In this document: positions 671 to 34,765 of the stretch, in pieces
Layout: every line of letters begins with the position of its first letter
Position numbering within the stretch: the first letter of the stretch is position 1
NCBI RefSeq assembly: GCF_039555335.1
Contig: NW_027305500.1
Coordinates: 1-64,000, forward strand
Direction of reading: 5' to 3'
Source: Amphiura filiformis
Taxonomy: Eukaryota > Echinodermata > Ophiuroidea > Amphilepidida > Amphiuridae
DNA length: 64,000 nucleotides
The notes under the pieces: model-generated
The model's input: only the letters and a program-made list of their open reading frames with translations
Told to the model about the DNA's origin: nothing
Databases searched by the model: none
Translations under genes and position numbers: made by a program

Positions 671-3600
671 ATGTCAAACGCAGCAGAACAGCAAAAAGAA
701 GAACCCAACGAAGAATACTTCAGGATGAGAGAAGAACTACAAATGAATATGGCTCAGGCCAATACTTCTGCAAATAATAAGTTGTACCTCGTTCTAATGA
801 TGGTGACTGGTCTAGCTGCCATTGTAGCTCTTATCATATCACTGGTTGTGTTTTCAAGTCGAAGTGGGAATACTTGCGTGATAGGTGGGACAAGCAATGG
901 CATGACAGGTGAGAGATAGCAGGGTTTACGTAGATTACATAAATTAGCATATTCCGTACGTTACCGCTGCCTTAAATACAGTTTTCATTTTCACATCAAA
1001 ATTTAAGTTTCCCCGAGTTCTTCTATTGTATGGAGGTGACCACGTGTAGAAGGCAATAGCCAGAGGTAAATAGAGCTCAATGAGTTGCAGTAGGGCCTAT
1101 ACAGCTTCTATAGCTAATATATTCAGGTTTTCAATAATTGTTTTCAAATCCAATTCGATGTTGTCGTTGTTATGTCATTCCTTCTAAAATCCATTCTGGG
1201 TAACTTTTACTGTACTACAACAATCAGCATTTTTCTATTGTACGTACGGTATAATAAAGAATCATTCCGGGTAGAGATTATACCTGAATATTCCTGCTCA
1301 CCGTGATTTTCTACTGCGCTAAATATCGGGTAAATACCCGATGCCGCTGATGTCATTTGCATATGTGCCGGTTGTCACCAACCCCCCCCCCTCGCGATTA
1401 AACCTTTCAAAGCCTCAGTACTCCACTGTGGCGAACAAGGATACGGAGGCTGTGGTTTTCTATTGACGAAAACCGGCTCTTCTCACCGGAAAAAAATCCT
1501 AGTTTTAGAAGGATAAATGCCGACGAAATAGCGGAGAAACTTTAGCCGGCATTCGCGGCCAAATACCGGAGAACGTCATTTTCTACTGGTAATTTTTAAC
1601 CCCCAAACCGGATATCATTAAATAAAAGAGTACACTTATATTGGCCATATACTAGCTTCATTAGAATGAGCAATGACCAATTCTCTATAAATTGCAAAAC
1701 TTGTGCAAAATGTTAGTTTTCGCCTGTTTTGTCATACGGTTGTAAATTCAATGAACTATGACTTTGCTAAAGAGCGCTTACAAATTGGTATGACCCCTGA
1801 AAGTATCTTGGACGGATTTATTTATTATTTCTTTAACAACTTATTTTGGATATCTGCAGTATTTCACACTAGAATTCACCTTCGTGGTACGGACCTTGAT
1901 CTAACGGGAAATAGATACAGTAGACGATAGGCCCAGTTGAGTACAGCAGGTACTTTCCTTTACAGCTCTGCGCTTTGCAAATCTGAAAATAAACACTTAT
2001 TTTGTAAACAGATAATAATCTATGGTTATTTATGGATGGAAACTTGGGAAATTGCTATTAATGAAACAATTAATATATTAAACATACATTTTGTTTTATC
2101 AACGATGAAAATCCGTTCACAAATAAGGTTTTAGGAAGCATTTGACATTAAACATTTTGAACAATTGCTCTATGAAAATGATACAATTGCACCCCTGTTG
2201 ATCCAGGCTACGGATAAGCTGTCAACAAGTGAGCAACTGGACAGTTAATAGTAACAATATAATCAACACATTCAGAAAATAAAGATTGGATTAAGCCCGA
2301 GAATCCCTGGGATTGAGTAATGAGTCACAAGTATAAATTAAATGTAGACCTATTTAGCACACATTTTCAATTTAGCATTCAACATAAAAATTCTTGTAAA
2401 TTTCCTATAGTATGTCATTGGTGGTGGTAACAATATTTCCCACCCGGTTAGTTGTGCATGTGCGCATGCTACAAACAAAAAATACTACATTGTAGCATTT
2501 CAAATACTTGTCAATGTAAAATTATGAAACATGAATTTCATCCATGGCGTTGTCTTTATAAAGACGTTTCTTGTTTAAATTAAATTTAGAATGAACTGAC
2601 ACATAGGGCCTAGATTAAAAGACCAGACCCGTAACCAGGATTTATTGGGCGTGCGGGGAAGTAAAAAGTGGGACCTTTGTGAACTTAGGACTGATTTCAA
2701 CTTTTTTTCCGAAAAAAAGTGGACATTTGTGGTTTTGTATCGTTGACATTGATTGCCTTTAGAGCGTTGATGTCGGTTTACATGGGTTGGGTAGGCTGGT
2801 AGGTATTTGTATGTGGAGAGCCGTGAATCTGTCTCTGTATAAGAGCTTATAGTTTATTCCCTCTCTGTCTTCAATTTCAGGTACTGGAGCGGTTGATACT
2901 AAAATATGGAACTTGGCTATTGGTCACCTGGACAACAACGAAGCATATATGTAAATGTTAATTTGATCTCTTTACGATATGACAATTTCTTTAAGGAACA
3001 TATACCGTAATGAAAAACTGGGCTAATTATCGTAAAAATGTAAGTTATGAAATTGGGTTACAAGGGAGCACGGTGAACGAGCGGAACGGGCTCTGACTCA
3101 TAATCGGAATGTTGTAGGTTCGAGCCCCAGTTGTGCCCTTGAGTAAGGCATTTTATCTCGATTACTCCTCTCCACCCAGATGTATAAATGGGTACCGGTA
3201 TTCTTTAATGCTGGGAAGGTAACATGCTCGGTGTGGCGATCTCCCACAACAACATTTCACGGTAGAGTCTAGCCTAATCGCCAACGAAAGAGAGATGGGC
3301 ACTCCGTCCTGTAAAAATTGCAGGTTCGACTCTTTATAAAGTTGCAGTGAACCACTTATTATAGCCGATGTAATAAAAAAAAAAACCCAATATGCTGTCA
3401 TTTTTAATCACATGGTTTTAGTTGATACATGTGTCTCTCAGGGGCCGTGCAATAATTATGTAGCCGCGGGAGGAAGTAAAAAGGGTGGGACTTTCTGATA
3501 AAACAAAATGCGATGGAAGGCAATTTTTGGTGCACCGTATTAATGTTATGCAGTATACGCACTAAGGGCGTAGAAAGCACAATGAAAATGTTGAAATAAG

Positions 3601-6600
3601 TGACATGCTTATTACGCTCCTCCCATCATGAAATTGGTTCCCCGAATTTGGTACTTTGCTAATATGGGGAGTAATTTTGGCGCGAATGCCGTTCGGAATT
3701 TTTACCATTTCACGGCGCACATAAATATTGCACAGACACTTATAGGCATCACGTCTAATTGGTGCTCGGTTAGGTACCGATGACTCCTTTTATAATGCCA
3801 AAGTGACAAAGACTTTCCTGATTATTTAATTTCAGCGATGATTTAACAGGACAGGTCAAAGGATTCCACGTAGACATTGCATTTGAAGGTAAGTAGTGTA
3901 AATTCCCATGGGATTTAAATTTAAAAAACGGCAAATTCATTTTACCCAACTTTAGGAGAGCGAGTGTGACATGACCATGGTAATGAATCAAATGTGAAAA
4001 GGCTGCAAAATTTTATACTCATATTTTATCTTTACATTTCATAGTTTGCAAGCGAGCGAACAAGAATTGCCGCCTGATATGGGATTTACACAACCGCTGT
4101 TGGGATTCGCAGGCTGGAGAGGTAACAAGAGGAGGCGTGGGGTTAATGGGTGGATGGTACGATGGCTGCGTAGGTAAGTGAAAGTGAACATATAAGAACT
4201 ATTTTCATTGGTTAGATAATACTATATAATTCGTATTGAGCCAATCAGAGATATGTTAAGAATAGTCAGTAGGGGATTAGACCAGTAAATTGCTAAGAGA
4301 TCTAAAGGTTATATTTCGATTGGTTACTAAGAATATCATGTAATTAACGAATCAGGGGCACTTTAAGAGAGAGACAGTGGTACCCATGTGGTTTATATTC
4401 AACCGTACATTGATAAATAATTCTGATTAGAGAAGACAATCGGACATATTCTGTAGGTTAATTTGAACACTATCGATTTTTTCTGGAATATTCTAGTCCT
4501 GAAACAAATCCATTAGGTTTGTGTGATACAATTCTAGGAATGTTCATCTTGTCAAAACCAAATATACTGACCTAACAGTTTCGGCCATCTTATTCAAAGG
4601 CCTTCTTCGGAGTGATGGTACTTGATCCTTCCTTCTGGTAGTGATCACCAACAGAGGGCGTACTAGCGCCCAGAAGTGGATCATATAGACATATATTTGT
4701 ATATTGAGTTTTTAGAACAACAACAAATTGCTACAGCCCCGTTAGACTGTAAACTGCGGCTCTGGTATGTCGGTGGCATTTTTAGAAATTACCAATAAAC
4801 TGCGGCTCTGGTATGTCGGTGGCATTTTTAGAAATTACCAACGAAAACGAAGTTGACAATTACTTATCACTCATCTAGAAAGAGCATGATGGGTCAATGT
4901 CGTATCGATACCCTCATCATTCGCAAATCCGATGCTCTGTTAAGCTGATGGTCTACAGGAAACTCACGCACACAGACCAATACCTCACACACCGACATCG
5001 CTAATTGACCTTTTCGGTAAATCCCATAAACTCTTTGCGAGTACACCTGAGAACTCGTCATTTGACGTCACGCCGACTTGCAATGCGCAGTAACGATGTT
5101 CGATAAACGATGTGCGCATCGGCGCGGAGCGGCGTGACGCAGAATGACGAGTTCTTAGGTGTACTCGCAAAGGCTTATGGGATTTACCGAAAAGGTCAAT
5201 TACTTTCTCTGCAGAGATACTAAAATCAATACCCGGGATCGATACACGTGAATGTCCTATGCACGAGTTTGATATGAGACGAAAATCTTTGGATACCGGG
5301 GTAGAAAATGATGAATATCTCCCGTAAATGATTTCGTATAAAGAAACCAGATATGGTTCCTTGCACTTGAATATATATTTTGAACAGATATGATAGTCGT
5401 TAGCTTGCGTCTTGAGATAGAAGCTTGCGTCTTGAGTCAGACACTGACAATAATTCTGATTTATATGTGCCGAATTATATAGCGCATTGTATAGGCCAAT
5501 CGTGATAGGTAGTCTAAAAGTATATGACCATGCTCGACTCGGCGAGGTCAGTCACCGGCCTAATCGGGGCTATTGTCAGTAGCCTTAGTCAGATGTCCTT
5601 CGGCCCATTATGCGACTCAAAACTATTAAACAGGTCGATACAAATGGCCATGCGTGGCGGTGGATTCAACCTACCATGGCGATTTCTGCCATGAAGATAT
5701 CGGGGCGATGACACTGTGCCTCATCCCATTCGAGCCAAGTCCACTTTGTATCCAAGTCCCAATATAGTCCGGGTCCTTTTGTGTCCGAGTCCGGACTCGA
5801 GCCGAAGTCGAGGGTGTCGAATCCGAGTCCGACAAAACTATTGCACTCTTCCAAGATATGATCGTATAATTCAGCGTAATGACACCCAATATAATACGAA
5901 GAACGCGTCTCTGGATTCGTCCTAATTTGTTGGCATGAGCAACGTTAACCAAGCATTCCAAACAGCAACAGCATACTTTGACAAACTTTGCTACTGCAGA
6001 GGCTCAAATGAACCAAATGATCAATGTCCTTACCTTCTTCACACTCTTGTAACTTAACATTACAAATAGTGCGAACTATTCTTTTGTTATAGGATGGGCA
6101 CAAAGCTACGACAGGTCACGCACGTTCAGATTCTCTAAACCATTTACTAAGTCCGCCAGTAGCTATCTATTAGTGAAGAGTAACAATCCTAGAGGAGTTG
6201 ACCCAACTGATTTGACTGGTAAAATCATAGGTTTCATTGACGGATACGTAAGCGACGAGTTCTGTCTAAAACGCCAACAAGGTGTAACGGTGAGTATATC
6301 TGGCATAAAGCTAAATTTATACTACATTGCTGAGCAAAGAGCGATTGTATTTGACCAATGATGTAGCGCACTTTACCCAACGCAACAAAAACACACGCAA
6401 CAACATTGGCTAGAAACCAATTGTCGCTTAGCGATGGAGTATAAATTCAGCTCAACGTTGCCTCTGCCTTGTTCATTTTCACTTCATAAATGAACTCAAC
6501 CCGATGTTTTTTCACCCAGGCTTCAGCCTGGTGATATTACATTCAGTTTAGACCTTGTCCTTTGAACCCAAATTGGCTACTTTGAAACGAAGTAGCCAAA

Positions 6601-9600
6601 TGCATTTGCTTCGTCCTCATTAAAATTATTTTACAGGATAATGCAGAGTATCTAATGGATCTGCAGGCTACTAAAAAACTAACCTCACTCCCCATGACAA
6701 AATTCATAAAACTATATTCAGTAGTGCTTGACTTTACCCAGGGAATGGATGGAATATTAACCTCATTCAAGTCCCCATGACAATTATTCGTACAGCTGTT
6801 CTGTAGCCTATGAAGTTATTTTTTGACATATAGGGATGATGTTGCAATATGAAAGTTGACCGGTGAATGGCCATGGCCACTAATTCATGAACTTGGCTAG
6901 CTGGCTGGCTGGTCTGAGGTCACACTTCTTAAACATCTATGATTTGAATTGCATTGTTGTTCTCATCACAGACTGAATTAGAAGGAACCATTAAACTACT
7001 ACTATTAAAGTCTGCTATTATAATCGGACACTAAATTAATTGTAAAAAATCCTCCTGCTCCCATCATGCAAGTTATTCCACTTAGACTGTTTGATATAGG
7101 CCTACTTTTATCAAAATAATTAAGCATTGATTAAGCATTTGCCAGTGAAACATTCTCACTCACAAAAATCACAGATACTCAACATGAGAATCTGTGCAAT
7201 GTTTGACAGAGAAGGTCACTAAATCTGGCCGTCTCAAGTTCATAATTAGTTTTGATTGATCTTCATGTACCAAATCATTTACTTTAAATTGATATCCTAG
7301 CTGTGACCTCTGAGCCAAATGTTCTATAGCATAGTAACACCACATGCATTCATATACATTTATATAAAAACATATTGGCATAATGGGGATTGATGTTCTC
7401 TGACTGCAGTAGGCTAGTAGTAGCATACAGGTAGTTCATATACTTATTCAGCAATCATAGCTCAGTTGTGGAGTACTAGTTCTTTGGTTGAATCACCACC
7501 TTCTTGACTGATCAGAAGACCTGTGTTTTATATAGGCTTACTGCATACACTGCCTACCTCTTTGCAGCTATGTGGAGCCAAGGTGGGGCAGTCCGGGGGG
7601 GTTGTGCAGTCATGTGACCTCCGTACGGCCTGGGTATTCCCTTTAAAGGGATTTTTATTCCTGTGTTCTTGCGTTCTTCGCCTACGACATTTGGCTGCCA
7701 AAAACTAACGCCCTCAACTGGCCGCAATTGGTCATATTTAGTATTTCATACTTTGACTGACAACAGTTGACAAGAAGAGATGCAGCGTCTCAGATCCCAA
7801 ATTGTCTTCGCGTTATGTTTAGATATATTGTATATATCGATGGGACTGCCAAATAGACTGCTACATGTATCACTGATGAAGTCGATGCAGAAACAAGGAA
7901 CTGGATGTTCAGAAAGCATCCCGAGATCTAAATATCTCCAGGTTATTCGGTTTCACACGTATCATATCAATTTGTAAGCGCTCTTTAGCAAAGTCATAGT
8001 TCATTGAATTTACAACCGTATGACAAAACAGGCGAAATAGTAACATTTTTGCACACTAGATCTGCAATTTAAAGAGAATTGGCCATTGTTCATTGAAATG
8101 AAGCTAGTATATGGACAATATAAGTGTGCTCTTTCATTTAATGACATAAAATTTGAAAAATATTGTAAGCAACACTTGAGGTTTTGACTTTTAAAACCTA
8201 CATTTTGGTAAAAAATTGTGCTTGGGGGTCGTTTTCAACAGATTAACCACATTCGCCTTGCTATTATCTGTTGACGAAATGAAAAAAGTGGTTTTTTTGG
8301 GGGTGTTAGCTTTCGTTCGATATAAAAGAAATTTCTGATTGGATTGATTTTTTTGCATTTGCACAGGGAAACAATCTGCCTTCGACTCAAATTCGACATT
8401 TTGCCTTACTCCAGGTGTTAATAGACGCTATCGTTAATGGACAGGTAGAGTTGATTTTTTTTACTAGATCTTAAAAGAAATATATTTCTCAAGGGCCAGG
8501 TCTCGGATATAGACCTTTTTCCGTTCTTTCCACCATGCAATATTCCAGGGTCCGAGATAGACCTTTTCCCTTCTGCCCATCATGCACTATTCCAGGGGGT
8601 ATGACGTAGTATAACTACTAATGGTCCCGGTGTAAGGGTCAGGTCCGTGATATAGACCTTTTTCCTTCTTCCCATCATGCACTATTCTAGGGGGTATGAC
8701 GTAGTATAACTACTAATGGTCCTGGTGTAAGGGTCAGGTCCGTGATATAGACCCTTTTCCTTCTTCCCATCATGCACTATTCTAGGGGGTATGACGTAGT
8801 ATAGCTACTGATGGTCCCGGTGTAAGGGCCAGGTCCGTCATATAGACCCTTTCCCCTTCTCTTCTTCCCATCATGCACTATTCTAGGGGGTATGACGTAG
8901 TATATACATCAACCCCATGGACAGGCACCGGAATAATCTCGCTAAAAAGTTAGCTCGCCACTAATTGTCCCGATGTAACCTATACGAAACTCGAAAAAAT
9001 CTAACTTGCTGGAAAGGTTTATCATGTTTATATGGGTTTAGTGGGATATATGTGACCATCCAGCACAACTGAGCCCTGAAGTCGCCAATCATCATTTTTG
9101 AGATATTCAACCAAAATATTCTGCTTTAAAATGATGTATATCATGTCTGTAGTACTTGACATTTAAGTGGTGAAAAATCAATAAAACAGTCAATAAATCC
9201 TTTGTTTCCTATTGTTTATTGTTAAGTTCAATGGAGCATATCTCAATAGTGGCACTGGCGACACCCGGGCTCAGTTGTGGTGGATGGTCACATATGCGCT
9301 TCTCAGCTGCAACTCTCGAAATTGTTGTCAAAGAGTTTATGCAGTTTGTGGTAGGGCTGACCGGTCACAGAGTTCAGCGATATGGACAGAGGCCTCTTAT
9401 AGATCAGTAACTTGATTTTTAAATTGTCTTAATATCCAGGTTGATGCTGGTTTCTCGTCATTTCGTGGCGATGTACCATCGACTATTACGAAATTATTAG
9501 ACAATCCCTTTTCGTGTTATTTGCCCAATGGTGGCGTTAGCATAATGACGAGGCTGGACAATGGTCTGCCTGACTGGTGGAACCCAGCACAAGATAGCCT

Positions 9601-10278
9601 TATACAGAGTTCAACATACAGGCAGATCTGCAACGATCTCAAAGACGCACATGGTAAGTTGCATGTATCATCTCTCCGATCTCGAAATTGCGGCTGCATA
9701 AACTATTTGGCCTGGACACAAAATATCTGCGCAGCTACATGAAAGACGCCCATCAAGCATGGTGTCTTGTGTATAAGAGATTGATGTTTATGTGTCAGTA
9801 ATTGGTCCAAATCTAAAGTGCCGAAAAAGTACGAACATTTGCTGTTCCATATCTGTTATATTGTGACGTGCCAAGTACCGGCGGAGGCTTTATTACTTCA
9901 ATATGTTAGGAAAATATATATCTGATCATCCAATGTTGACATTGGCTAAATAAGCTGTATTTTCGCTCAAAAGGGTACTGATTCATGAAATTTTTTCTTG
10001 TCCGTCATTTTGACCCTTTGCTTACATAATAAATACCGCTCACTGCACCTGGTTTTTCGAACTTTTTCGATCTTGATTTGAAATGGCCTACAAGTAGGGA
10101 GAGGGAGGGGAGAAAAGGTGGGGAAGGGATAAAGGCAGGAGATTCTCATGTATTCCTACACATGCGGCACATGCTTAATGCTGACTTCTGTCGGTTTAGT
10201 GATCACATGGTTGTTATTTTTAAATCTTCAGGTGACCAACGTGGAAATGATCCATCCGATGTATGTCTTGGGATGTAG
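671..10278 (+). CDS. Gene A: single-pass membrane protein with periplasmic-binding-protein type 2 (SBP_bac_3-like) outer domain, 8 exons
   Basis: Exons are 671-908, 2881-2950, 3836-3888, 4045-4173, 6093-6289, 8367-8444, 9440-9653 and 10232-10278. All introns are GT-AG, phases 1-2-1-1-0-0-1, giving 341 codons ending in TAG. The start is the first ATG in frame; the corresponding ATG in B and C has an in-frame stop shortly upstream. Residues 1-37 are acidic and polar, 38-61 form a membrane helix, and the rest reads as a two-lobed solute-binding fold. LTGQVKGFHVDIAFE (106-120) matches the lobe-1 G-F-x-V-D-I-A motif. S168-Y-D-R171 followed by F177-S-K-P-F matches the T/S-x-x-R...F-S-x-P-Y ligand motif, where the Arg binds a carboxylate in known family members. 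GQVDAGF (254-260) is the lobe-2 strand. Type II topology and ligand sensing or capture are inferred. A candidate AATAAA lies at 10685. No permease or channel segment is present. Confidence 0.85.
1310..1620 (+). repeat. Repeat shared by intron 1 of genes A and B
   Basis: A block with repeated ACCGG and TTTTCTA words, including ATATCGGGTAAATACCCGAT, is present here and at about 15570-15830 in gene B. It is missing from the short intron 1 of gene C. The B version has an internal deletion. It is either an inserted element predating the A/B split or part of the duplicated unit. Confidence 0.5.
1621..1800 (-). repeat. Inverted-repeat family, intron 1 of gene A
   Basis: This segment is the reverse complement of 7960-8130 in intron 5 of the same gene. 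Related copies are at 16498-16690 (same orientation) and 21225-21405 (opposite). A shared shadow reading frame around FCHTVINSMNYDFAKER makes it easy to mistake for coding, but stops and the inverted placement argue against that. Confidence 0.65.
3060..3360 (+). repeat. tRNA-derived SINE in intron 2 of gene A
   Basis: CACGGTGAACGAGCGG followed by GTAGGTTCGAGCCCC resembles a tRNA A box and B box. The downstream CCTTGAGTAAGGCA core is of a kind common in marine-invertebrate SINEs. An orthologous copy is at 17364-17650 in gene B. A truncated head is at 32165-32215 in gene C. Confidence 0.6.
5003..5201. mobile_element. Foldback MITE, intron 4 of gene A
   Basis: About 65-bp terminal inverted repeats start AATTGACCTTTTCGGTAAATC and end with its complement; they contain CCCATAAxCTxTTGCGAGTAC. 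Relatives are at 25358-25523 (intron 1 of gene C), and one arm is seen near 57115-57165. It lies in a roughly 0.7-kb stretch (about 5005-5720) present in A but absent from the matching intron of B, so it arrived after duplication or was lost from B. Confidence 0.7.
6503..7660. other. About 1.15-kb insertion in intron 5 of gene A relative to gene B
   Basis: Flanking intron sequence is continuous in B (AACTCAACCCGAGGTTTTTCCTG near 20897). In A it is split by this stretch. It includes a short hairpin, CAGGCTTCAGCCTG, at 6519. No coding or clear terminal repeats were found. Confidence 0.45.
7780..8345 (+). repeat. Inverted-repeat family, intron 5 of gene A
   Basis: The stretch from GATGCAGCGTCTCAGATCCC to the AATTTCTGATTGGAT end pairs with the intron 1 copy at 1621-1800 and with the upstream fragment at 100-290. 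The homologous stretch in gene B is 21040-21605. It ends just before the exon 6 acceptor. Confidence 0.6.
8480..8905 (+). repeat. Minisatellite in intron 6 of gene A
   Basis: Roughly 115-bp units each contain TTCTTCCCATCATGCACTAT, GGGGGTATGACGTAGTAT and GGTCAGGTCCGTGATATAG. About four units are present. Gene B has about three (21755-22065); intron 6 of gene C lacks the array. Confidence 0.75.
9049..9294. mobile_element. MITE inserted in intron 6 of gene A only
   Basis: Terminal inverted repeats TGTGACCATCCAGCACAAC and GTTGTGGTGGATGGTCACA bound a 246-bp insert. Gene B holds the empty site at about 22197 (GATATGCG), so the insertion postdates the A/B duplication. The flanks are short and TA-rich. 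Confidence 0.75.
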
Positions 10279-10684
10279 TTTGCGCCTGACGTCAGGGCAA
10301 AGGCGCGTCGTGATTGGTTGCTGACCTGTGCAGTACGGCATTTTTGGTCTGGTTGACAGGACGTCATACGCAAACTAGTCTTTTTAATTCGGTCTTCAAT
10401 TATATATAAGGAGGAATTGTCAGACTTTGGTCATGTTTGATAGCCTAAAACCTAATCGTGCGCCTTGTTTTTACAATCGAAACCAGTTATAGGGAATGCT
10501 GAGACTACAATCATGATAATACTACGATATTAAATTCAATATGATGAGGTTGTTTTGTTTCTGTTTTAATTCCGAGAGAGTTTGTTGTGTAACCGCCTAT
10601 TAAAGACAATGCCTCTATGTACGATAAAATTGATATGTACATGGAAAAGGTTGTTTGCAATATCCTTGGTGTGCAGAATATTAA

Positions 10685-10690
10685 AATAAA
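10685..10690 (+). terminator. Candidate polyadenylation signal, gene A
   Basis: AATAAA in a context shared with the B flank at 24146-24151. It is chosen only because it is conserved and downstream of both stops. Confidence 0.25.
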
Positions 10691-10739
10691 TATACACATC
10701 AGTGCTGTCAACTCTTGAGTGTATTTAAAAAAAATACAA

Positions 10740-11110
10740 TGAACACTTCATACCTTGTGTGTGAGGGACATTTGGTTTAAAAAAGGGAAATATAACAAAA
10801 TACCAAATTTGCATCTATAATTGGCGACCATCTAGTTGATTCTTTTTTGTCGGGATTCAAAAGAGCGAAGGTACGCAACTGTAAATATGCATTTTCTTTA
10901 TTTTGCACTTTGTTCTCAAAGCAAGTGTCCCTCACAGCCAAATCTGGCATGTGTTCAGGGAGAAAACGGGGTTTTTTTTGGCAGACCATTTTGTAAACCC
11001 ATCCCGACAAATAATTATTGCACAGCCCTGTAAGTGTACATAAAACGTTATATGTTTACCTAATGTATACCGTCTTGTGGTTATAATTTGTATAAAATCT
11101 TATTCTTATA
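10740..11110. repeat. Duplicated 3' flank, copy after gene A
   Basis: This noncoding flank, with AAGCAAGTGTCCCTCACAGC, CCCATCCCGACAAATAATTA and TATGTTTACCTAATGTATAC, recurs after gene B (24160-24550). Pieces also recur at 37440-37500 and 38840-38975, well beyond gene C. It marks the right edge of the duplicated unit. Confidence 0.65.
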
Positions 11111-11299
11111 ATTTTTATTATTATTAAAACTCATTTATCAGACGCCCTTTCAATTAAAAGCACCATTACACAATAGATAATATAATAACAAATATAACAA
11201 GTATACATTAAACATGTTGAATGCGAAATAATAGAATACATAAAATACACCATACCGTATCTATTTCAAAAAGAGCTTAAAAATAAAAAAATAAACAAA

Positions 11300-20800: not shown

Positions 20801-23238
20801 CAACATTGGCTATAGAAACCAATTGTCGCTTAGCGATGGAGTATAAATTCAGCTCAACGTTGCCTCTGCCTTGTTCATTTTCACTTCATAAATGAACTCA
20901 ACCCGAGGTTTTTCCTGTGTTCTTGCGTTCTTCGCCTGCGACATTTGGCTGTCAAAAACTAACGCCCTCAACTGGCCGCAATTTGTCATATTCAGTATTT
21001 CCTACTTTGACTGACAACAGTTTATTGAAAAACAAGATGAGATGCAGCATCTCAGATCCCAAATTGTCTTCGCGTTATGTTTGGATATATTGTTTATATC
21101 GATGGGACTGACAAATAGAGCAACTGTTATCACTGATGAAGTCGATGCAGAAACAAGGGACTGGATGTTCAGAAGCATCCCGAGATCTAAATATCTCCAG
21201 GTTATTCGGTTTCACACGTATCATATCAATTTGTATGCGCTCTTTAGCAAAGTCATAGTTCATTGAATTTATAACCGTATGACAAAACAGGCAAAATAGT
21301 AACTTTTTTGCACAGGATTTGCAATTTAAAGAGAATTGGCCATTGCTCATTGAAATGAAGCTAGTATATGGACAATATGAGTGTGCTCTTTCATTTAATG
21401 ACATAAAATTGAAAAAATATTGTAAGGAACACTTGAGGTTTTGACTTTTAAAACCTACATTTTGGTAAAAAATTGTGCTTGGAGGTCGTTTTCAACAGAT
21501 TAACCACATTTGCCTTGCTATAAACATTGAATTGCGTTATCTGTTGACGAAATGAAAAAAAGGACTTTTATTTAGCTTTCGATCGATATAAAAGAAATTT
21601 CTGATTGGATTGATTTTTTTGCATTTGCACAGGGAAACAATCTGCCTTCGACTCAAATTCGACATTTTGCCTCACTCCAGGTTTTAATAGACGCTATCGT
21701 TAATGGACAGGTAGAGTTGACTTTTTTTTACTAGATCTTATATTTCTCAAGGGCCAGGTCTCGGATATAGACCCTTTTCCGTTCTTTCCACCATGCACTA
21801 TTCCAGGGTCCGAGATATAGACCCTTTCCCTTCTTCCCATCATGCACTATTCCAGGGGGTATGACGTAGTATAACTACTGATGGTCCCGGTGTAAGGGTC
21901 AGGTCCGTGATATAGACCTTTTTCCTTCTTCCCATCATGCACTATTCCAGGGGGTATGACGTAGTATAGCTACTGATGGTCCCGGTGTAAGGGCCAGGTC
22001 CGTGATATAGACCTTTTTCCCTTCTTCCCATCATGCACTATTCTAGGGGGTATGACGTAGTACATCAACCCCATGGACAGGCACCGGAATAATCTCGCTA
22101 AAAAGTTAGCTCGCCACTAATAATTGTCCCGATGTAACCTATACGAAACTCGAAAAATCTGATCCTTGCTGCAAAGGTTTATCATGTTTATAGTGTGATA
22201 TGCGTTTCTCAGCTGCAACTCTCGAAATTGTTGTTAAAGGGTTTATGCAGTTTGTGGTAGGGTCGACCGGTCACAGAGTTCAGCGACACCCGGCAGCGAC
22301 ATCGACAGAGGCCTCATCGAGAGGCCTCGTAGGTTTAGCTTATGCATAATCTTATAGATCAGTAACTTGTGGATTTTTAAATTGTCTTAATATCCAGGTT
22401 GATGCTGGTTTCTCGTCATTTCGTGGCGATGTACCATCGACTATTACGAAATTATTAGACAATCCGTTTTCGTGCTATTTACCCAATGGTGGCGTTAGCA
22501 TAATGACGAGGCTGGATAATGGACTGCCTGACTGGTGGAACCCAGCACAAGATAGCCTTATACAGAGTTCAACTTACAGACAGATCTGCAACGATCTTAA
22601 AGACGCACATGGTAAGTTGCATGTATCATCTCTCCGATCTCGAAATTGCGGCTGCATAAACTATTTAGCCTGGACACAATATATCTGCGCAGCTAAATGA
22701 AAGACGATCATCAAGCATGGTGTCTTGTGTATAAGAGATTGATGTTTATTTGTCAGTAATTGGTCAAAATCTAAAGTGCCGAGAAATGACGAACATTTGC
22801 TGTTCCATATCTGTTATATTGTGAAGTGCCAAGTACCGGCCGCGGAGGCTTTATTAGTTCAATATGTTAGGAAAATATATATCTTGTCGTCCCATGTTGA
22901 CATTGTCTAAATAAGCTGCATTTTCGCTCAAAAGGGTACTGATTCATGACATTTTTGCTTGTCCGTCATTTTGACCCTTGCTTACAGAATAAATACCGCT
23001 CACTGCACCTGGTTTTTCGAACTTTTTCGATCTTGATTTGAAATGGCCTACAAGTAGGGAAAGGGAGGGGAGAAAAGGTGGGGAAGGGATAAAGGCAGGA
23101 GATTCTCATGTATTCCTACACATGCGGCACATGCTTAATGCTGACTTCTGTCGGTTTAGTGATCACATGGTTGTTATTTTTAAATCTTCAGGTGATCAAC
23201 GTGGAAATGATCCATCCGATGTATGTCTTGGAATGTAG
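14869..23238 (+). CDS. Gene B: tandem paralogue of gene A, 8 exons
   Basis: Exons are 14869-15106, 17192-17261, 18347-18399, 19061-19189, 20493-20689, 21633-21710, 22398-22611 and 23192-23238. Exon lengths and phases equal those of gene A and give 341 codons. An in-frame TAG lies upstream of the ATG. It is very close to A: sampled changes include Ala32 to Val, one His to Tyr in exon 4, Val to Glu in the RGGxGLMGG stretch, Ser187 to Thr, and Leu to Ser in exon 6. Much of introns 1, 4, 5 and 7 aligns to A, so the duplication is recent or homogenised by gene conversion. The ligand-motif Arg and the GQVDAGF strand are kept. A candidate AATAAA at 24146 lies about 0.9 kb from the stop because a MITE sits in between. 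Confidence 0.85.
16255..16690 (-). repeat. Inverted-repeat family, intron 1 of gene B
   Basis: Reverse complement of 21225-21605 in intron 5 of the same gene, over nearly 400 bases. The matching arm in gene A is shorter. Confidence 0.7.
17364..17650 (+). repeat. tRNA-derived SINE in intron 2 of gene B
   Basis: Counterpart of the SINE in gene A, with a better preserved B box (GCAGGTTCGAGCCCC) and an additional GCGATGCCATCGTGTTG stretch that A lacks. The insertion predates the A/B duplication. Confidence 0.6.
18150..18250. repeat. Short foldback in intron 2 of gene B
   Basis: AACATTTGCATAGTGTTTTC pairs with AAAGCACTATGCAAATGTTC. The same hairpin type is at 26868-26935 in gene C, flanked there by GGTACCGATGACTC and its complement. 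It is either an old MITE or a structured intron element. Confidence 0.55.
18413..18918. mobile_element. G/C-run-terminated element in intron 3 of gene B
   Basis: Inserted between two copies of GTGTAA; gene A has the uninterrupted site at about 3885-3895. The ends are CCCC plus a long G run then CACTTC, and the complement AAGT plus a C run. The interior repeats CATTCGGTGAGAGCAAAATG and GGGTCATTGGGTGAGA units four to six times. Confidence 0.7.
21040..21605 (+). repeat. Inverted-repeat family, intron 5 of gene B
   Basis: Pairs with 16255-16690 across exons 2-5 and ends immediately upstream of exon 6, as in gene A. Confidence 0.7.
21755..22065 (+). repeat. Minisatellite in intron 6 of gene B
   Basis: Same roughly 115-bp unit as in gene A, with about three copies, so the array length differs between the two young paralogues. 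Confidence 0.75.
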
Positions 23239-24115: not shown

Positions 24116-24159
24116 TTGCACTTTCCTTGGTGTGGAGAATATTAAAATAAATATACAAT

Positions 24160-25010: not shown

Positions 25011-28000
25011 ATGTCAAACGCAGCAGAACAGCAAAAAGAAGAACCCAACGAAGAATACTTCAGGATGAGAGAAGAACTACAAATGAATATGGCTCAGGCC
25101 AACACTTCTGTAAATAATAAGTTGTACCTCGTTCTAATGATGGTGACTGGTCTAGCTGCGATTGTAGCTCTTATCATATCGTTGGTTGTGTTTTCAAGTC
25201 AAAGTGGGAATACTTGTGTGACAGGTGGGACAAGCGGTGGCATGACAGGTGAGAGATAGCAGGCCTACATAGATATTAGTATAAATTAGCATAAATTAGC
25301 ATATTACCTACGTTACCTCTGCCTTTAATAGAGTTTCATTTTCACTTCAAATTTGTTATTCACCTTTTCGGTAAATCCCATAAGCCTTTGTGAGTACACC
25401 TGACGTCCACGCCGACTTGCAATGTTAAGTAACGATGTTCGATAAATGCATTGTCGTGACGTCACATGACGAGTTCTCAGGTGTACTCGCAAAGGCTTAT
25501 GGGATTTACAGTAAAAGTGAATTGCATGGAGGTGACCACAGTTATTGCAGGTTGTCAGAGCCAGAGGCACGTAGGGATCAATAAGTTGCAGTATACAGCC
25601 TTCTCTCCCAAAAGAAGTGCAAACAAAAACGCTGATTCAAAGTTGTAATTATTTGACACAATTCATATTAAAACTACGCTTAAATATCAGCCTTTTCGAT
25701 ACTTGTTATTCCATCCAATTTGTATTTTTAATGGTGACAGATATCGGAGTTTTATTTTGTGTTTTCGTGTCGTTGAGATTGATTGATTTTAAAGCGTTTA
25801 TGTCGGTGAACATGCATGGGTGGGATAGGCTGGGTGGGTATGTGTGTGTAGAAAGCCTTGAATCTGTTTCTGTATAATGTTATACTTTCCCTCTTTTTTT
25901 TAATTTTAATTTTAGGTACTGGAGCGGTTGACACTAAAATATGGAACTTGGCTATTGGTCACATGGCCAACAACGAAGCATATATGTAATTATATCACTC
26001 ATACATAAATTCTAGACAGTTCATTGGTTGATTGCCATTTATTTATTTAATTTTTTTATAACATTTGGCACAAGGCCAGGCAGATCCAATATTGATTACA
26101 CAATAAATTGAAGGATTGCCCTTACATTAAAATCAGAAACATTACTAGAAAATACATATAATCAATACAGAATCAAATAAAACAAAACATAAATTATGTG
26201 AGCTGGTTAGAGGAGGTGGGATGTTGATGGTGTTACGTTGATGAAAAAATGTAGAATTTATGTATGAGTGATATAAAACAAATATTAACTGTCTTAAATT
26301 CGTGTAATGGTCGAAATATAATCATTCGGTGAAAGATGTATTGTTCCATTCCACTAGCCGTTCCGGCTCGTGGAATGGAACAATCCATCTTTCACCTCGT
26401 GATTATATTTCGACCATCACACTCATAGACAGTTAATATTTGTATACTATCAATCTGCAATTTATATACGATTTTATCTCTTTCCTATATGACAACTTTT
26501 TCGCGTCGGGCAAGACAGTTTTAGGGCTCGATCACCCGCCTTTTCACAGTATTTTTATGGGATCTGAGAGCACACCAGACACACTAAATCTTAATACGAG
26601 GAATGTCCGTCTGAATACCGCGAATTTTGAAATTCGCGATATAACAGATACAATTATTTTGGCAAATTACTAAAAATTGACATTTTTGACATTTAACAGT
26701 ACTCATTCAGCAGGAAATTTTACTCTTCCTTGACGCAAGTGCACAGACCGTTAGGCACCACGTCTGATTTGGTCCTATGGCACTATCGGTACCCGGTTAG
26801 GTACCGATGACTCTTTCTATCATACCCTGGTGTTTTAAATTGTGTCAAGCATAATAGGCCCTAATTAACATTTGCATGGTGTTATCGTTTTTCAATTGAA
26901 TAAAAAGGAAAGTACCATGCAAATGTTCAGGGTACGATAGAAGGAACCATCGGTACCTATTGGCACGTACATGGATAGCGCTTTATTCACACAAAGACAA
27001 AGTGACAAAGACTGTCCTGATTATGTAATTTCAGCGATGATTTAACAGGACAGGTCAAAGGATTCCAAGTAGACATAGCATTTGAAGGTAAGTACAGTAC
27101 ATGAGTAGTGAGCCTATTTATCCTGGGAAGAAAGATGAACAATGTCGCAGTAAAGAAAAATAAAAGGGAGCGAATAGTGTACGTGTGGTGATATATACTC
27201 ACCTCAATATACAGTGCTCAAAAGAATTAAGGTACCAGTTATGTTCACCCCTGTATGTCGTAAACACCGAGTACTTTTTAGCTCTGATTTAAAATCACAT
27301 TTGTTAAAATTGGCTAAGACAAAAGTTTTAATGTGCTAATCAATGGAAAGCACGGCGCTAGATATCTTTTTCGAGAACGCTTCAAGAAAACAATAGGGCA
27401 TGCAATGGAGCAAACTGTAACTTTTGAATTGGCATCTTCCTTGGGGTTTTGGATCATCGTGTTTTTTTTTCCTTGAACGATTTGGATAAACTCTTAATCC
27501 TAGCTAAAAGGTGCAGCTATTGGCTGCTGGTTCCAATTACGACATATATATTTGTCAAATGAACCATGATAGTGTTGCAGAGGGCATTATGTGTGTAAAT
27601 TCCCATGGGATCAACCCGAATTGCAAAAACTGCAAATTCATTTTACCCAACTTTAAAAGCGAGTATGACCATGGTAATGAATCAAATGTGAAAAGGCTGC
27701 ACAATTTTATACTAATTTTATCGTTACATTTCATAGTTTGCAAGCGAGCGAACAAGAATTGCCACCTGATATGGGATTTATACAACCGCTGTTGGGATTC
27801 GCAGGCTGGAGAGGTAACAAGAGGAGGCGAGGGGTTAATGGGTGGATGGTACGATGGATGCGTAGGTAAGTGATAGGGAACAAATAAAAAATCTCTATCG
27901 GCCGAATTATCAGTCTTAAACATGTTATCGAACTATTTTCATATATCGTCTTTGGATGCAATCGAGTGTGTCAACATAAACAAAGTTAAGGGTTGTGTAA

Positions 28001-31000
28001 AGCTATATCAGGTGGGTAGGGGTAAAAATAAGATTATTGCCATTTTGACCAAAACACGTACGCATTTATGATTTGCCAAACAGAAACTAACAGAATAACA
28101 CCTAAAAGTATCATTTTTTGATCATTTTGCATAAATACGACTTTCCACGATTTACAAAATGTTTGTACCGGGTGTGCCTGTTGTCAAGTCGATGACAGAC
28201 ACGCGTACCAACCTTGAATAATTATACTGAATTGTGATGTAACAGTCCGTACAGAGGGTATTCAATACGGCGTGACAGAGCCATTATCATTCAAATAAAA
28301 GTCTGGCCTTCCTAAGGTAACAATAAAACAGGTAATAGGTATGACTGGTCGTGGAATCGATCTAGAAACCTGTCTCGCTGTCATCTTAAGCTACAGGGTG
28401 TCACTTGCATTTATTATGAAGTGCAGAATTAACCATACATTTGTTGCCGAAATGAGTAACACGTAATTGTGGACATAGCTTGTTCTTGCTCTGAGCCCTC
28501 GTAATATTGAAAACACATGAAAAAGGTCCAATATCAAGAATTCGTCGGCTGTATTCCATAGTGGCGTATGGTGATTTTTGGTCATTTTTTAAAAAATTGG
28601 CACATATGTTTTTAATGATGTTCTCTTTCATTTTCAGTCTCATCAGTCATAATTAGCTAATTAATTAGTAATTAATTAATTAAATGTGGCGTATAGTTAC
28701 AAAGTGACATTTTTTGTATTCCATAGTGGCGTATCGACCATACGCCACTTTTTATACACATTTTATAATTATGAAATATCGGCAAATATGAAAAACATCG
28801 TATGTCATAGTGGCGTAAGCGTATCAGACCTATACGCCACTATGGAATACGAACGACGAAAAGTAACACCATAGGGATTACACGGCGACCGAGGTGGCGT
28901 AAGGTTAACGTTAGGTTAGGGTATTGCGTTTTGTTCGTTTTCCATAGTGACGTATAGTTTTATTTTCAGTTTGTCAGCAATAGTATGTATTTATTTCTTT
29001 TGAAAATATATAACAATAAAATCTATTTAGTTTACTACAGAAATTTCACATCATTTACAAAATATAATGAATGTCTGATTTACACAACTCGATTTTAAAT
29101 TGGCATTTCTTCAAACCCGATTTTCTTGAAAAGTTGTTTATTCGCGGCGCCCCACTATACGCCACTATGGAATACAGACGACGAATTATTCAGTTTTTCA
29201 AGCTCTACATCTGTGCCAAATTTGGTGTATCTCCTATGACAACTGTATGATTTCTACACATAATTGCAAAGTAGGCCTACGCGATAGTGATAAAGCAGCA
29301 ATGTCTTGTGCTTATGAAGCCTTTGCGCTGTAAGTTACACACATGCAATTTTTACACATGCAAAACATCCAGTTTTAAGAATATGCAATATCACGCCAAA
29401 ACGAATGAAGGTTTTGCAATGAAAGTAACACAATAAGTAGGTGACACTTATGCCATTGTATTTCACGTACCGTACTCAAATTAAATACAATGTTGATTAA
29501 TGGTTTTAAACACGTGTTTTAATACACGATGATACAATAAAACATGAGATCGGTTTGAATGGTTGTGGAATCAAACTAGAGACCTGTTCCTTTGTCACAT
29601 TAATAGACCTGATAAATCAAGCGGAACGATTTCATGACAAATCCTTTCACAGAATTGACCGTGTTTCCAGCGCTGCAGTGTTGGTATTAACTTTGGGCTT
29701 CTTATGAATTGATTGTCAATACATTATAGGTATATACATTAAAACTCAAACGGGAGAAAGAATCGCGCATACGCACCTTAGAACATTTTAAACACTGTTT
29801 TAAAATTGTATATTACAATTTATTTACATTAACATTGTACCCTAAATAACATGGACATTTGGGTGATATATTGATGTAGTTACGGGCCATATTTAGTGCC
29901 GATTTGTCCCAATTTGCTTTTGACTTGCCTGGCAACACTCCATAAAACATGGCTATAATTGAAGACCGAATTAAAAAGACTAGTTTGCGTCTGACGTCAG
30001 GGCAAAGGCGAGACGTGATTGGTTACTGACCTGCGCAGTACGGCATTTTTGGTCTGGTTGACAGGACGTCATACACAAACTAGTCTTTTCAATTCGGTCT
30101 TCAATTATAGTCGTGTGAAGAAGCTTGAAGACAGGGGAAGTTGGAGACCCATAAGGAATTATATTAATTTGTTCTCAAACGGAATCATGAAAATAATCGT
30201 AAGTAAAAGTAGTTAAATAACATAGCGCTATTAGCTCGCCTATGAACCTTGGTATTCGTTACTTAACCGGATAAATAACTTTGGCAAAACTGACAAATTT
30301 GTACCAAAATTGGCGTTAACTCGTTACTGTCGAAAATGTACAAAATATGGCTTCCGTGAATCTAAACACATTGATATTTAAAAATTGGTTAATTGTATTA
30401 CCATAAATCGAACATGGACATGTAGGATGGTATCTCTAGAAGTCTTTTTGCCTGAAAAATTGGAATTTTGTTGAATTTAGAGTAACAAAATAACATGCGC
30501 CAGACAGTGGTCGACGAGAGTGTAAAATCAGGTAGTATTTTGTGTATTGACGAGCTTCAAACATGCCTTCGTTGCATTCCGAAGTCGCAAATATCTATCA
30601 TAATTCTTATTTCAAGGTCCTGTAAATACCTCAGCAAAAAGATAGGGTCATCGTCCAACACGGACTGCTCGAAAAAAGTTCACCTATAAAAAACTGCGTG
30701 GGCTGTTATGCGTCGTTATATGTACAGGCATATTTGAAGAATTTCCTATCAACTAATAATATTAAGATTGCTAAAATATTAATCTAAAGACTTCATTCTT
30801 TCATGTGCACCATAAATTTTGCACCTGAGATAGATATTGCTAGGCAAAATTTCACAGCAAACATGGCAGTTTTCTCCCATTTCGGAGATATTTGAGACAA
30901 TACAGACCGACCCCTTAAACCAGCGTTCCAAACAGGAACATATAATAAACATAGTTTTAAACCTTTCTACAGAAAAGACTTAAATGTCTTATTAATGCAG

Positions 31001-34000
31001 CTTTAAAAACATTCTAAGGTCAATAGAATCAAAGGATCATTGCCCTTATCTTCAACATACCCTGGTAACTTTACATTACAAATAGTGCAAACTATTCTTT
31101 TGTTATAGGATGGGCACAAAGCTACGACAGGTCACGCACGTTCAAATTCTCCAAACCATTTTCGAAGCTCTTCAGTACATATCTTTTAGTGAAGCGCAAC
31201 AATCCTAGAAGAGTTGACCCAACGGATTTGACCGGTAAAATCATAGGTTTCATTGATGGATACGTCAGCGACGAGTTCTGTCTAAAACGCCAACAAGGTG
31301 TAACGGTGAGTCACGTTGCCTCCGCCTTGAACAAAGCGTTCATTTTTACTTCATAACTTGACTTCTCATGAGGTTTTTCCTGTGTTTTGCACCTGTGGCA
31401 TTTGGCTGTCAAAGTTTTACACCCTAAACGTGCCGTACAAGCTCTATTTATTTCACAATGACGTAAAATGGCGACGTACTAATTCGAATCTGTCACTCCG
31501 TAATCCAACATGGCGTTACTCTCAAGTTGAGACGAGACAGTATTGAAAAGCAAGTTCTGATTTTACCGTGTGTTTTACAAGAATTAATTGTGCTGCGCAC
31601 ATTTTAAGAAAGGTAATAGAGAGATTGCGATTTCCAAACGTACGTATCGAATGCCTGTGCAATCCATTCAAAATCACTCTCCTGTGACGGCATTTTGAAT
31701 AGATTGCACGGGCATTCGATACGTACGTTTGGAAATCGCAATCTCTCTATTGATCGGAGATGCTGCATCTCAGATTGTAGTTACTCCTAATTACATGAAG
31801 GATCACCAAATTGTCTTTCACGACGGTAGAACAATGTTAGAATATTGTTTTACATCGATCAGCGTGATTTTTTTTATTTTCTGGCTTATTTGCACAGGGT
31901 AACAATCTGCCTGCGAGCCAAATTCAACATTTTGCCGGACCACAAGATTTGATGGACGCTATCGTCAGTGGACAGGTAGATTTGAAGTTAAATAGATTTC
32001 TACTAGATGATGTTTTTCCTGAACGGGACATAATTCTCAAGGCCCAGGTCTGGAATATTACCCCCTCAGAACGGCCGGAGGGGTTAATAGTGGTTGCTTA
32101 TGTCTTAGTAGTATATGGGCCTTTAGAGAAAATTTGATAAGTTCTTAATCAGGGGGTTTTCAATCGGGGGCACGGTGGCGCGGCGATACGGGCTCTGTCT
32201 CACAATATTCTAACGACAGCAAAATAAATGTAAAGCATTTGATACACGTGAAAGTCTGTGTATAAATGACATGGCACATACGAAGACAACTGTCCAACAC
32301 TATTATTAAGCCCATGCAAAAAAAAATAATAATGTCGGTAATAGCTCGGTGGTAACAACAGTGTCCGCTCAATAAATGGGAGGTCCCGGGTTCAATTCCC
32401 GGTCGAGGAATGTGTAATTATGGGAGAGTTAGTTATTGCGCATCCCACTACCCAGAGTAAAAAAGAGCTTCTTTAAGTCTTAATCAAGTTAAAGCTCTCT
32501 TTTACTATTATCAAATAAAACTCATCAGTACCCATCAGTTTTGATATTGATTGAAAGGTTTGCTCTTCGAAATGTAACCATTTTGGGACTAACGTTTTTC
32601 TACAAATGAGATGGAGCTAGCTGCATTTTGATGTGGGTGGTAGTCTTCTCAATCATTTTGATACATCGTGTATTCTGGTGCGTTACGCTGCGAAAACGGT
32701 ACGAGTTTGAGCTTACGCAGTTTCTTTGCTTATTCTCGTAGTCAAGAATAAGCTTCTAATATTGTCTGCATCTGGTTAAGTCGTACTATCGCCAACTTTG
32801 GTGGAATAAGGTCAGGTCAAATGTGCGCGCGAATAATGTGAGAGTGTGCGAAAAATATTACTTCATGAGCCGCCTTCTGAAGCTGTGCAGTGTTGGTGCT
32901 GTTGTGATGTCCTCTGTCCGGTGTAAGCTATACAAAACTCGGAAAGCTGGTATTTGCTGCAAAGGTTTATACTAGGATGTGTGCTTCTTCGCTGCAAGTT
33001 TCTGAATTGTTGTTAAAGTGTTTGTTCTTTTGTGGTTCTGGCCACAGAGTTCATCGACATTGACCGAGGCCTCGTTGGGAAGCCTCGTAGGTTTAGCTTA
33101 TGCTGGTTTCATACTTTCTGCCGCTTGCCGCTGAGCGGCGTGATGCTTCATCATGTCGCTTGCACTTATCGAAGCAGCACGCCACTGAGTGGCAGCGGCA
33201 TGACTTTGAAAGCCACTGTTGCCGTTCAGTACCGCTCGAAAGTTGTATATTGTTCTCATACGTCAGAGCGGCAACGCTCTGAGTTGACTTGAATTCTCCC
33301 AGCGATGCTGCCGCTTGGGGTAAGCGGTGGAGTGATCGATATATCGGCTTGCCGTGCCGCTGGTCACCGCTAGCATTTCTGGTGCAACAAGCGACATGAA
33401 AGTATGAAACTATAGATCAGTAACTTGTGAATTTGTTTAATTTTCTTAATATCTAGGTTGATGCTGGTTTCACGTCATTTCGCGTCGATGTAGCCCCGGA
33501 TTTAGCAGATGCTATTACGAAATTGTCAGACAATCCATTTTCGTGCATTTTACCTAATGGTGGCGTGGGCATAATGACGAGGCTGGACAATGAACTGCCT
33601 GACTGGTGGAACCCAGCACAAGATAGCCTTATCCAGAGTTCAACTTACAGACAGATATGCAAAGATCTCAAAGACGCACATGGTAAGTTGTATGTATCAT
33701 CTCTCCCGGAATTAAACTTAAGGGTACGGTTGGCCTGTGTTTCAAACCACCCCCTCTCATTGTTTCGTAATTTGCGCAAAGCTGTACGCTTTGTTTAATG
33801 AAGTTGCTGTTGGTAACATAACTTTTTACTAGAAGTATATTTGGTAACTATAGTCAGACATTCAGTTTTAGTGAAAATTCAACCAACAATTTGTCTCACA
33901 GCCGCGCCTCTGATAGCTTCACTGTCCCGCATTGTACACCGAACCGAACTCCAACCCTCCTCCTAGTGCCAAAAAGAGATAAACAAGTACTTTGATATAC

Positions 34001-34765
34001 TTCAGTGTGGTCTTGTGGGTAAAAACCCTGGAAGGGGGGGGGGGGGTCCAATTATTTTACAGGCAGTGGCGTATCAGAGTCAGATGTCTGAAGTTGCAAA
34101 GAGCAAAATATTCCGATGGGCATCATGTTGGTCCTGTGTTACTGTGATAATACCCTTTTCAAATCAAAGTTTTCTGAAGACAACTGGCGTTAATTCAAGG
34201 ACGACCGAGGTTATAATTCCGGGTCATCAACGCTAACACAACTATTGGCCTGAAATCAAATCTGCTTGAAAGATACGATCAAACATAGGGTATGTCTTGT
34301 GTAAGAGACTGGTGTTTACGTTGTCAAGTGTCATTTGTCAACATTTTAAGTGCCGAAAAATGACGAACATTTGCATTTTTCTTTCCATCACTATTATATT
34401 CAATATGTTAGGAAACATTTTACCTGATCACCTCATGTTGATATTGGCTAAATTTATAACCTGTATTTTCGTGAAAAATGACATTTCTTCTCCGCTATTT
34501 TCACCCCCTAGCTTACTGAATAAATACCGCTCACTGCACCTGGTTTTCCGAACTTTTCCAATCTTTATTTGAAATGGTGAAGATGGAAGATAAAGAAAGA
34601 GAGGAGGGGAGAGAAGATGGGGGAAACGAGAAAGGACGGAGATGGAGAAAGCAAAATTTTTACACATGTGGCCGCAGATGCTAAATTTTGACTGGTCGTT
34701 ATTTTTTTTTATCTTCAGGTGATCAACGTGGAGATGATCCATCGGATGTATGTTTTGGGATGTAG
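25011..34765 (+). CDS. Gene C: diverged tandem paralogue of gene A, 8 exons
   Basis: Exons are 25011-25248, 25916-25985, 27035-27087, 27737-27865, 31109-31305, 31898-31975, 33457-33682 and 34719-34765. Phases match A and B. Exon 7 is 12 bases longer (226), adding four residues after the VDAGF strand and giving 345 codons. Substitutions are spread through exons 2, 5, 6 and 7 (for example HMANNEAY for HLDNNEAY, and SKLFSTYLL for TKSASSYLL), while the membrane helix, the S-x-x-R...F-S-K-P-F motif and the WW pair near the C-terminus stay. Most introns differ from A and B in length and inserted repeats, yet no exon carries a stop or frameshift, which suggests purifying selection. An in-frame TAG at 24951 precedes the ATG. 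Confidence 0.83.
25358..25523. mobile_element. Foldback MITE, intron 1 of gene C
   Basis: Relative of 5003-5201, with arms CACCTTTTCGGTAAATCCCA and the complement near 25495-25523. The interior has GACGTCA words. It replaces the longer intron 1 repeats of A and B. Confidence 0.65.
25991..26275. mobile_element. MITE in intron 2 of gene C
   Basis: Terminal inverted repeats of 24 bases begin TATATCACTCATACATAAAT. It starts only six bases after the exon 2 boundary, just beyond the donor GTAATT. Confidence 0.7.
26277..26444. repeat. Near-perfect foldback in intron 2 of gene C
   Basis: Arms containing GGTCGAAATATAATCA, GGTGAAAGATG and TTGTTCCATTCCA pair around a centre near AGCCGTTCCGGCTCG. It directly abuts the 25991-26275 MITE. 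Confidence 0.7.
28539..29187. mobile_element. TIR element with repeated CCATAGTGGCGTA motif, intron 4 of gene C
   Basis: Ends AATTCGTCGGCTGTATTCC and GGAATACAGACGACGAATT. The word CCATAGTGGCGTAT or its complement occurs about seven times inside, including hairpins at 28721-28755 and 28805-28855. This suggests nested copies of one MITE family. Confidence 0.7.
31614..31752. repeat. Foldback with about 60-bp arms, intron 5 of gene C
   Basis: AATAGAGAGATTGCGATTTC pairs with GAAATCGCAATCTCTCTATT. The arms continue through CGTACGTATCGAATGCC and differ at only a few positions. Confidence 0.8.
32330..32480 (+). repeat. tRNA-derived SINE, intron 6 of gene C
   Basis: GGTAATAGCTCGGTGGTAAC (A box) and CCGGGTTCAATTCCCGG (B box and T stem) are clear, followed by a non-tRNA body. 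No full cloverleaf with a paired acceptor stem is seen, so it is not called a tRNA gene. Confidence 0.6.
33103..33410. mobile_element. MITE in intron 6 of gene C
   Basis: GGTTTCATACTTTC near the left end and GAAAGTATGAAACT at the right end form terminal inverted repeats. The interior is GC-rich with GCCGCT/AGCGGC words. Confidence 0.6.

Follow-up and report, generated by a model that had tools for sequence, protein, structure and literature searches.

What does a solute-binding domain of the bacterial type do when it is tethered to a membrane in an animal? The question is raised by the first 64,000 nucleotides of contig NW_027305500.1 (RefSeq assembly GCF_039555335.1) of the ophiuroid Amphiura filiformis. 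In this stretch, referred to as the window, a preliminary reading of the sequence alone (hereafter the sequence-only reading) proposed a tandem trio of genes, A, B and C, each coding for an N-terminal membrane helix followed by a domain of the SBP_bac_3 family of solute-binding proteins (SBPs). We are highly confident that A, B and C are genuine genes of the host that encode an SBP_bac_3 domain of the bacterial type; the best explanation of the whole, to which we give an even chance, is that they encode a tethered Venus-flytrap receptor or co-receptor and not the feeder of an ATP-binding cassette (ABC) transporter.

Gene structure and selection

The letters of positions 1–12000 were read directly; across the whole window, exons of A, B and C were located with tentative exon peptides as tblastn queries, and their borders set by GT-AG and reading frame. 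Each gene has eight exons, and all 24 lie on the forward strand within positions 671–34765: gene A at 671..10278, B at 14869..23238 and C at 25011..34765. Intron borders are GT-AG in 21 of 21 introns, the intron phases (1,2,1,1,0,0,1) are common to the three genes, and the spliced frames run to 341, 341 and 345 amino acids with no internal stop, C being longer by 12 bases, in frame, in exon 7. These borders, phases and stop-free frames bear out the proposal of three intact eight-exon genes; tblastn of the 64 kb window with the exon peptides found no fourth copy.

In gene A, exon 1 (671..908) encodes the N-terminal tail, a hydrophobic segment (windows >1.6 at residues 36–66) and the start of a stalk, followed by exon 2 (2881..2950), exon 3 with the TGQVKGFHVDIAFE motif (3836..3888), exon 4 with the pair Cys122-x6-Cys129 (4045..4173), exon 5 with Arg171 and the motif FSKPF (6093..6289), exon 6 (8367..8444), exon 7 with VDAGFSS, where Ser stands at the place of the presumed ammonium-binding Asp (9440..9653), and exon 8 with the stop codon (10232..10278). 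The corresponding exons of B, 1 to 8 with the stop, lie at 14869..15106, 17192..17261, 18347..18399, 19061..19189, 20493..20689, 21633..21710, 22398..22611 and 23192..23238, and those of C at 25011..25248, 25916..25985, 27035..27087, 27737..27865, 31109..31305, 31898..31975, 33457..33682 and 34719..34765; exon 6 of C differs from that of A nonsynonymously in 8 of its 26 codons.

Ratios of nonsynonymous to synonymous divergence (dN/dS, NG86 method) are 0.125 for A–B, 0.308 for A–C and 0.249 for B–C, none of them near 1. Synonymous changes make up 17 of 25 changed codons for A–B, 31 of 68 for A–C and 34 of 66 for B–C, an excess over the synonymous-site fraction of 0.228 in every pair (P 1.9e-6, 2.8e-5 and 3.5e-7, respectively). 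Judged by these codon comparisons, A, B and C are under purifying selection, and the view of a real, selected host gene family is upheld by the introns, the common phases and the synonymous excess in all three pairs. A pseudogene origin is ruled out by the three intact frames together with that excess. Divergence is uneven along the genes: between A and C, exons 1–5 give dN 0.039 and dS 0.121 and exons 6–8 give dN 0.100 and dS 0.348, and between A and B, dS is 0.042 in exons 1–5 and 0.162 in exons 6–8, with dN below dS in both halves for all three pairs. Gene conversion in the 5′ half is one possible cause, quicker change of the 3′ half another.

A duplicated segment of about 14 kb carries A and B; within it, pieces longer than 290 bases are 79–99% identical with gaps (substitutions of about 1–9% in the long pieces, plus large indels). 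The likeness of C to A and B is found mainly in exons and short flanks, and the three genes resemble one another over about 200 bases upstream of the start codon. The segment common to A and B would also be expected if they were two haplotypes of a single locus, set in tandem by the assembly, so that copy number was inflated and only two genes were present. We regard this as improbable, though to be reckoned with: dS between A and B (0.080 by NG86; range 0.064–0.080) is high for alleles, the order is A-B-C rather than A-C-A-C, and C is clearly a separate copy. Of the proposed trio, then, three gene models are seen, but A and B could still be haplotypes, which would make two loci.

Domain identity and bacterial relatives

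SBP_bac_3 (PF00497) matches all three proteins above its Pfam cut-off of 26.4 bits, with 28.7, 28.6 and 29.6 bits for A, B and C. A profile built from 54 bacterial domains scores 44.0–47.6 bits on the three ectodomains, compared with 2.2 bits for the best of 1000 shuffles (4.8 bits over all profiles tried), and in sequence alignment the domain runs end to end with bacterial SBPs. The families of ionotropic glutamate receptors (iGluRs), PF10613 and PF00060, gave no match up to E 10 with the ectodomains of B and C, and none up to E 1 with protein A. A single hydrophobic segment is seen in each protein, with windows above 1.6 over residues 34–67 and a best window of 2.78; the best windows starting after residue 70 reach 1.21, 0.96 and 0.79 in A, B and C. 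The sequence thus accords with the architecture first proposed, an N-terminal membrane helix followed by an SBP_bac_3-like domain and no channel within the model, the helix being predicted from the hydrophobic segment. Of the 88 open frames listed for the window, 15 more were compared with Pfam, and no ABC permease or ATPase was found among these.

The solved structure that matches A best is 3tql, an arginine-binding protein (E 1.7e-5), which also comes first for a three-sequence profile (E 1.3e-4), followed there by nopaline-binding chains and STM4351 (E 0.005–0.006). TIGR01096, the lysine/arginine/ornithine family, is the best NCBIfam match (29.3 bits for A, 30.2 bits for C), and its cut-off of 256.35 is not reached. 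In all three copies, Cys122-x6-Cys129 aligns with a Cys pair of HisJ, ArgT, ArtJ and ArtI, which we take to be Cys38 and Cys45 of the mature proteins. The pair is absent from GlnH, GltI, TcyJ and GluA2 and is present in 14 of the 44 domains of our bacterial panel (two duplicate rows dropped; not a random draw). In a maximum-likelihood tree made without the two Cys columns, the animal proteins stand beside the SBPs that have the pair, in a weakly supported part of the tree, and the rows lacking it fall together on one side of a branch supported at 72/89. Profiles that included rows fetched for their likeness to the animal protein favour the Cys-pair group by 49–53 to 15–23 bits; once those rows are left out, the Cys-pair profile gives 31–35 bits against 15–18 and 22–23.

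Several results pull against these assignments. After 3tql, the structure matches of A are weak (E 0.009 or more), with nopaline- and histidine-binding proteins, glutamine-type proteins and a 'major cell-binding factor' among them. Six single-exon pieces taken alone (exon 5 of A, B and C, exons 4 and 7 of A, and exon 7 of C) match no Pfam family up to E 1, so that it takes the spliced model to call the domain. An approximately unbiased (AU) test rejects neither a grouping of the animal proteins with GluA2 (p 0.149) nor one with the rows lacking the pair (p 0.13). Masking the two Cys of B removes the subfamily preference (19.6 bits, against 18.4 and 21.8); assignment to the HisJ/ArgT/ArtJ branch therefore depends on the Cys pair and is no more than suggestive. 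The domain probably came by an old transfer from bacteria with SBPs of this kind, a step that is likewise only suggested.

The AU result for GluA2, together with the FSKPF motif that GluA2 also has, speaks for a degenerate iGluR that has lost its channel. The iGluR ligand-binding domain is also animal and membrane-bound, and presumably of the same broad fold class. Yet the GluA2 ligand-binding domain, run as a control, scores 158 bits with PF10613 (and 72 bits with SBP_bac_3), the very family that finds nothing in A, B and C; GluA2 ranks only 29th, 34th and 29th of 55 rows by phmmer and lacks the Cys pair; the domain of A, B and C is not split by a channel; and no iGluR appears among the 19 structure matches of A or the 16 of the three-sequence profile up to E 10. 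By these comparisons the three proteins are probably not iGluR remnants, an origin that we consider very improbable.

A search of 398 Pseudomonadota genomes with the animal protein gave matches at E 1e-5 in four, 26–27% identical. Among 72,556 plasmid records, 55 matched at E 0.01, each at less than 60% identity, the strongest of the matches listed having 58 bits and 24.8% identity; a phage collection yielded two records at E 0.1, and exact-peptide scans of genome and viral contig collections found no relative. Recent bacterial transfer or contamination is rejected on the introns and on the outcome of these Pseudomonadota, plasmid, phage and contig searches. The sets searched yielded no close bacterial relative; an old transfer, or very fast change following one, fits and a recent one does not. 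Two SBPs on Shinella plasmids (L001 and L003) have the Cys pair and a Leu at the usual Arg place, and the annotated neighbours in L003 are hypothetical proteins, not ABC partners.

Ligand cleft, membrane anchor and function

Read against HisJ in the alignment, two cleft places are kept in all three copies, Arg77 as Arg171 and Gly119 as Gly, and Trp stands throughout at the place of residue 52, which is Leu in HisJ and Phe in ArgT. Changed in all three are Ser70 (to Gly), Ser72 (to Ala), Thr121 (to Val), Tyr14 (to Asn) and Asp161 (to Ser), and the place of Asp11 is Leu or Met across the copies. The roles of these places, including a carboxylate-binding Arg and an ammonium-binding Asp, we assume from the HisJ and ArgT structures. 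Of the Arg and Asp that would together hold an alpha-amino acid, each copy thus retains the Arg and has Ser for the Asp. An extra stretch of about seven residues, read off the alignment, precedes the Arg-bearing part. The retention of all motifs claimed by the sequence-only reading holds between A, B and C; it does not hold against the bacterial relatives, where several ligand contacts are changed in all three copies.

Across the panel, the Arg is present in all 44 domains. Asp161 is kept in all 26 domains from frames shorter than 600 amino acids and lost in 16 of the 18 from longer frames; nine of ten long-frame loci were scanned, and PAS or histidine-kinase parts turned up at seven of the nine, the other two frames reaching the locus edge. 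Outside the 44-row count, seven Escherichia coli and two Shinella SBPs all have the Asp (9/9). As far as alignment can tell, loss of the Asp is in keeping with a tethered sensor in which the classical mode of recognising a free alpha-amino acid has been given up. The genes may therefore encode candidate small-molecule sensors, and the lost Asp would narrow the functions first listed (sensor, decoy or nutrient capture) towards a sensor-like role.

Net charge is +1 over the 15 residues before the hydrophobic segment and +1, 0 and 0 after it in A, B and C, so that the flanking charges would slightly favour an N-in orientation in B and C and are even in A. Nine Cys, an odd number, follow the segment, with Cys69 adjoining it. 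The first 33 residues of the tail are identical in the three copies, codons 2, 17, 20 and 31 differing synonymously, and the N-terminal 73 residues gave no match at E 1e-5.

Gene structure, purifying selection, domain family, the single hydrophobic segment, the absence of a channel, the kept Arg and the change of Asp to Ser are read from sequence; from them we infer topology, place, fold, ligand class, lobe closure and signalling as follows. Each product would be a single-pass membrane protein, probably with its N terminus in the cytosol and its C-terminal domain outside the cell or in a lumen. The ectodomain would be a complete bacterial-type SBP_bac_3 (type-2 periplasmic-binding-protein) domain in which the retained Arg171 could hold a small ligand through its carboxylate or a comparable anionic group. 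Binding would bring the two lobes together, and a partner membrane protein, or else the conserved N-terminal tail, might serve to read the closed form.

Some observations also stand against such a receptor. A stand-alone SBP from Raoultella, outside the 44-row count, has Asn for the Asp. Fifteen of the 17 sensor-type rows form one clade, and the Asp losses are for that reason few independent events. Several lost contacts could equally mean that ligand binding itself has been lost. Finally, the only N-glycosylation sequon lies in the N-terminal tail and none in the predicted ectodomain, which is somewhat unusual for an animal surface domain and makes a place at the surface somewhat doubtful.

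Other functions can be imagined for the same proteins. A tethered domain might concentrate amino acids or related solutes at the surface of the cell and pass them to a solute carrier, in keeping with the ancestry of the family in amino-acid import and with the kept cleft Arg; a sequestering role has also been floated for membrane SBPs of gut fungi, according to the available portion of PMC5168858. Such nutrient capture is unlikely in view of the Ser that replaces the ammonium-binding Asp kept by every short-frame panel domain, and of the further changes at the places of Tyr14, Asp11, Ser72 and Thr121. Those changes, shared by all copies, and the extra stretch before the Arg-bearing part would suit a domain that has given up small ligands for adhesion or scaffolding, also an unlikely outcome, as Arg171 and an aromatic residue at the residue-52 place persist in all three copies. 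A decoy or immune protein that sequesters microbial small molecules would account for a bacterial-type domain in an animal, for local growth in copy number and for the quicker change of exons 6–8 than of exons 1–5 in dN between A and C; set against overall purifying selection, with dN below dS in each half of every pair, we hold it to be rather unlikely.

A more specific version of the receptor explanation is offered as a long shot: an animal lineage may have acquired a bacterial SBP of the cationic-amino-acid or opine type and anchored it as an iGluR-independent receptor for a carboxylate ligand that has no free alpha-ammonium group, such as an opine. Opines are made by many marine invertebrates themselves. 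The hints are that nopaline-binding proteins come next after the arginine-binding one in the profile search (E 0.005), that one record among the plasmid matches listed carries an octopine-binding annotation, and that the related Raoultella SBP is also without the Asp.

Surroundings and published parallels

A MITE-like repeat of about 130 bases occurs at 10276–10404, 23236–23366 and 29981–30109. The first two copies start at the stop codons of A and B and lack the left end, and the third, in intron 4 of C, has both inverted ends (by eye). A 95-base tandem repeat lies in intron 6 of A (8557–8904) and of B (21807–22062) and was not found in C. Further along the window, one open frame on the reverse strand (40140–41282) encodes a rhodopsin-type G-protein-coupled receptor (7tm_1, 120 bits, whole profile), and a partial SRCR domain (52 bits) lies at 62776–62958 on the forward strand; with these two the window looks animal. 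Long open frames at 13608–14441 (reverse strand) and 57788–58633 (forward strand) have no Pfam match at E 1 and are possibly mobile-element remnants. Scans of the window for tRNA genes and Rfam families gave no matches.

Besides the iGluR ligand-binding domains, three known systems come closest to the products of A, B and C. With SBPs of the HisJ/ArgT/ArtJ type (TIGR01096, PF00497) they share the end-to-end alignment of the domain, the Cys-x6-Cys pair and the carboxylate-binding Arg; unlike these, the animal copies have introns, a hydrophobic anchor retained in the model, Ser for Asp161, no ABC partner in the window frames scanned, and scores far under the TIGR01096 cut-off. Bacterial flytrap sensors likewise tether an SBP_bac_3 domain, and those in our panel have mostly lost the Asp; they differ in carrying kinase or PAS parts on one chain with it and, in the panel, in having no Cys pair. 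The case described in PMC5829827 is BvgS, a sensor with SBP_bac_3 Venus-flytrap domains. Eukaryotic parallels come from anaerobic gut fungi, whose SBPs, as far as the accessible text of PMC5168858 goes, have terminal membrane helices, no ABC partner found and a function given as unknown; the same text has eukaryotic membrane-bound SBP domains as typically type I, except in ligand-gated channels. According to PMC11291939, SBP_bac_3 genes reached Neocallimastix and Anaeromyces by transfer. From these sources, the fungal proteins resemble ours in being eukaryotic, with membrane helices and no ABC partner; they differ in that the membrane-bound ones are like sugar-binding proteins and the SBP_bac_3 transfers have named donor families.

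Within animals, PF00497 appears in a gene-family table for a beetle (accessible part of PMC8805230), perhaps, at a guess, for its ionotropic receptors; IPR001638 is noted in the delta-1 receptor in the portion available of PMC2950845, and animal iGluR classes are treated in that of PMC6307864, neither of the latter two portions describing a stand-alone animal SBP. Judged by title and the start of the abstract, none of the matches listed from the open PMC literature describes a stand-alone animal protein of this kind; similar proteins may already carry an annotation, as the sequence-only reading suggests. The architecture is unusual in an animal, with fungal and bacterial parallels published.

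If A, B and C are expressed and bind a ligand, they would represent a second animal use of the type-2 flytrap besides the iGluRs. Their simple build, a single domain on a single helix, would be directly assayable, and would offer a test of how a part of a bacterial transporter turns into an animal receptor.

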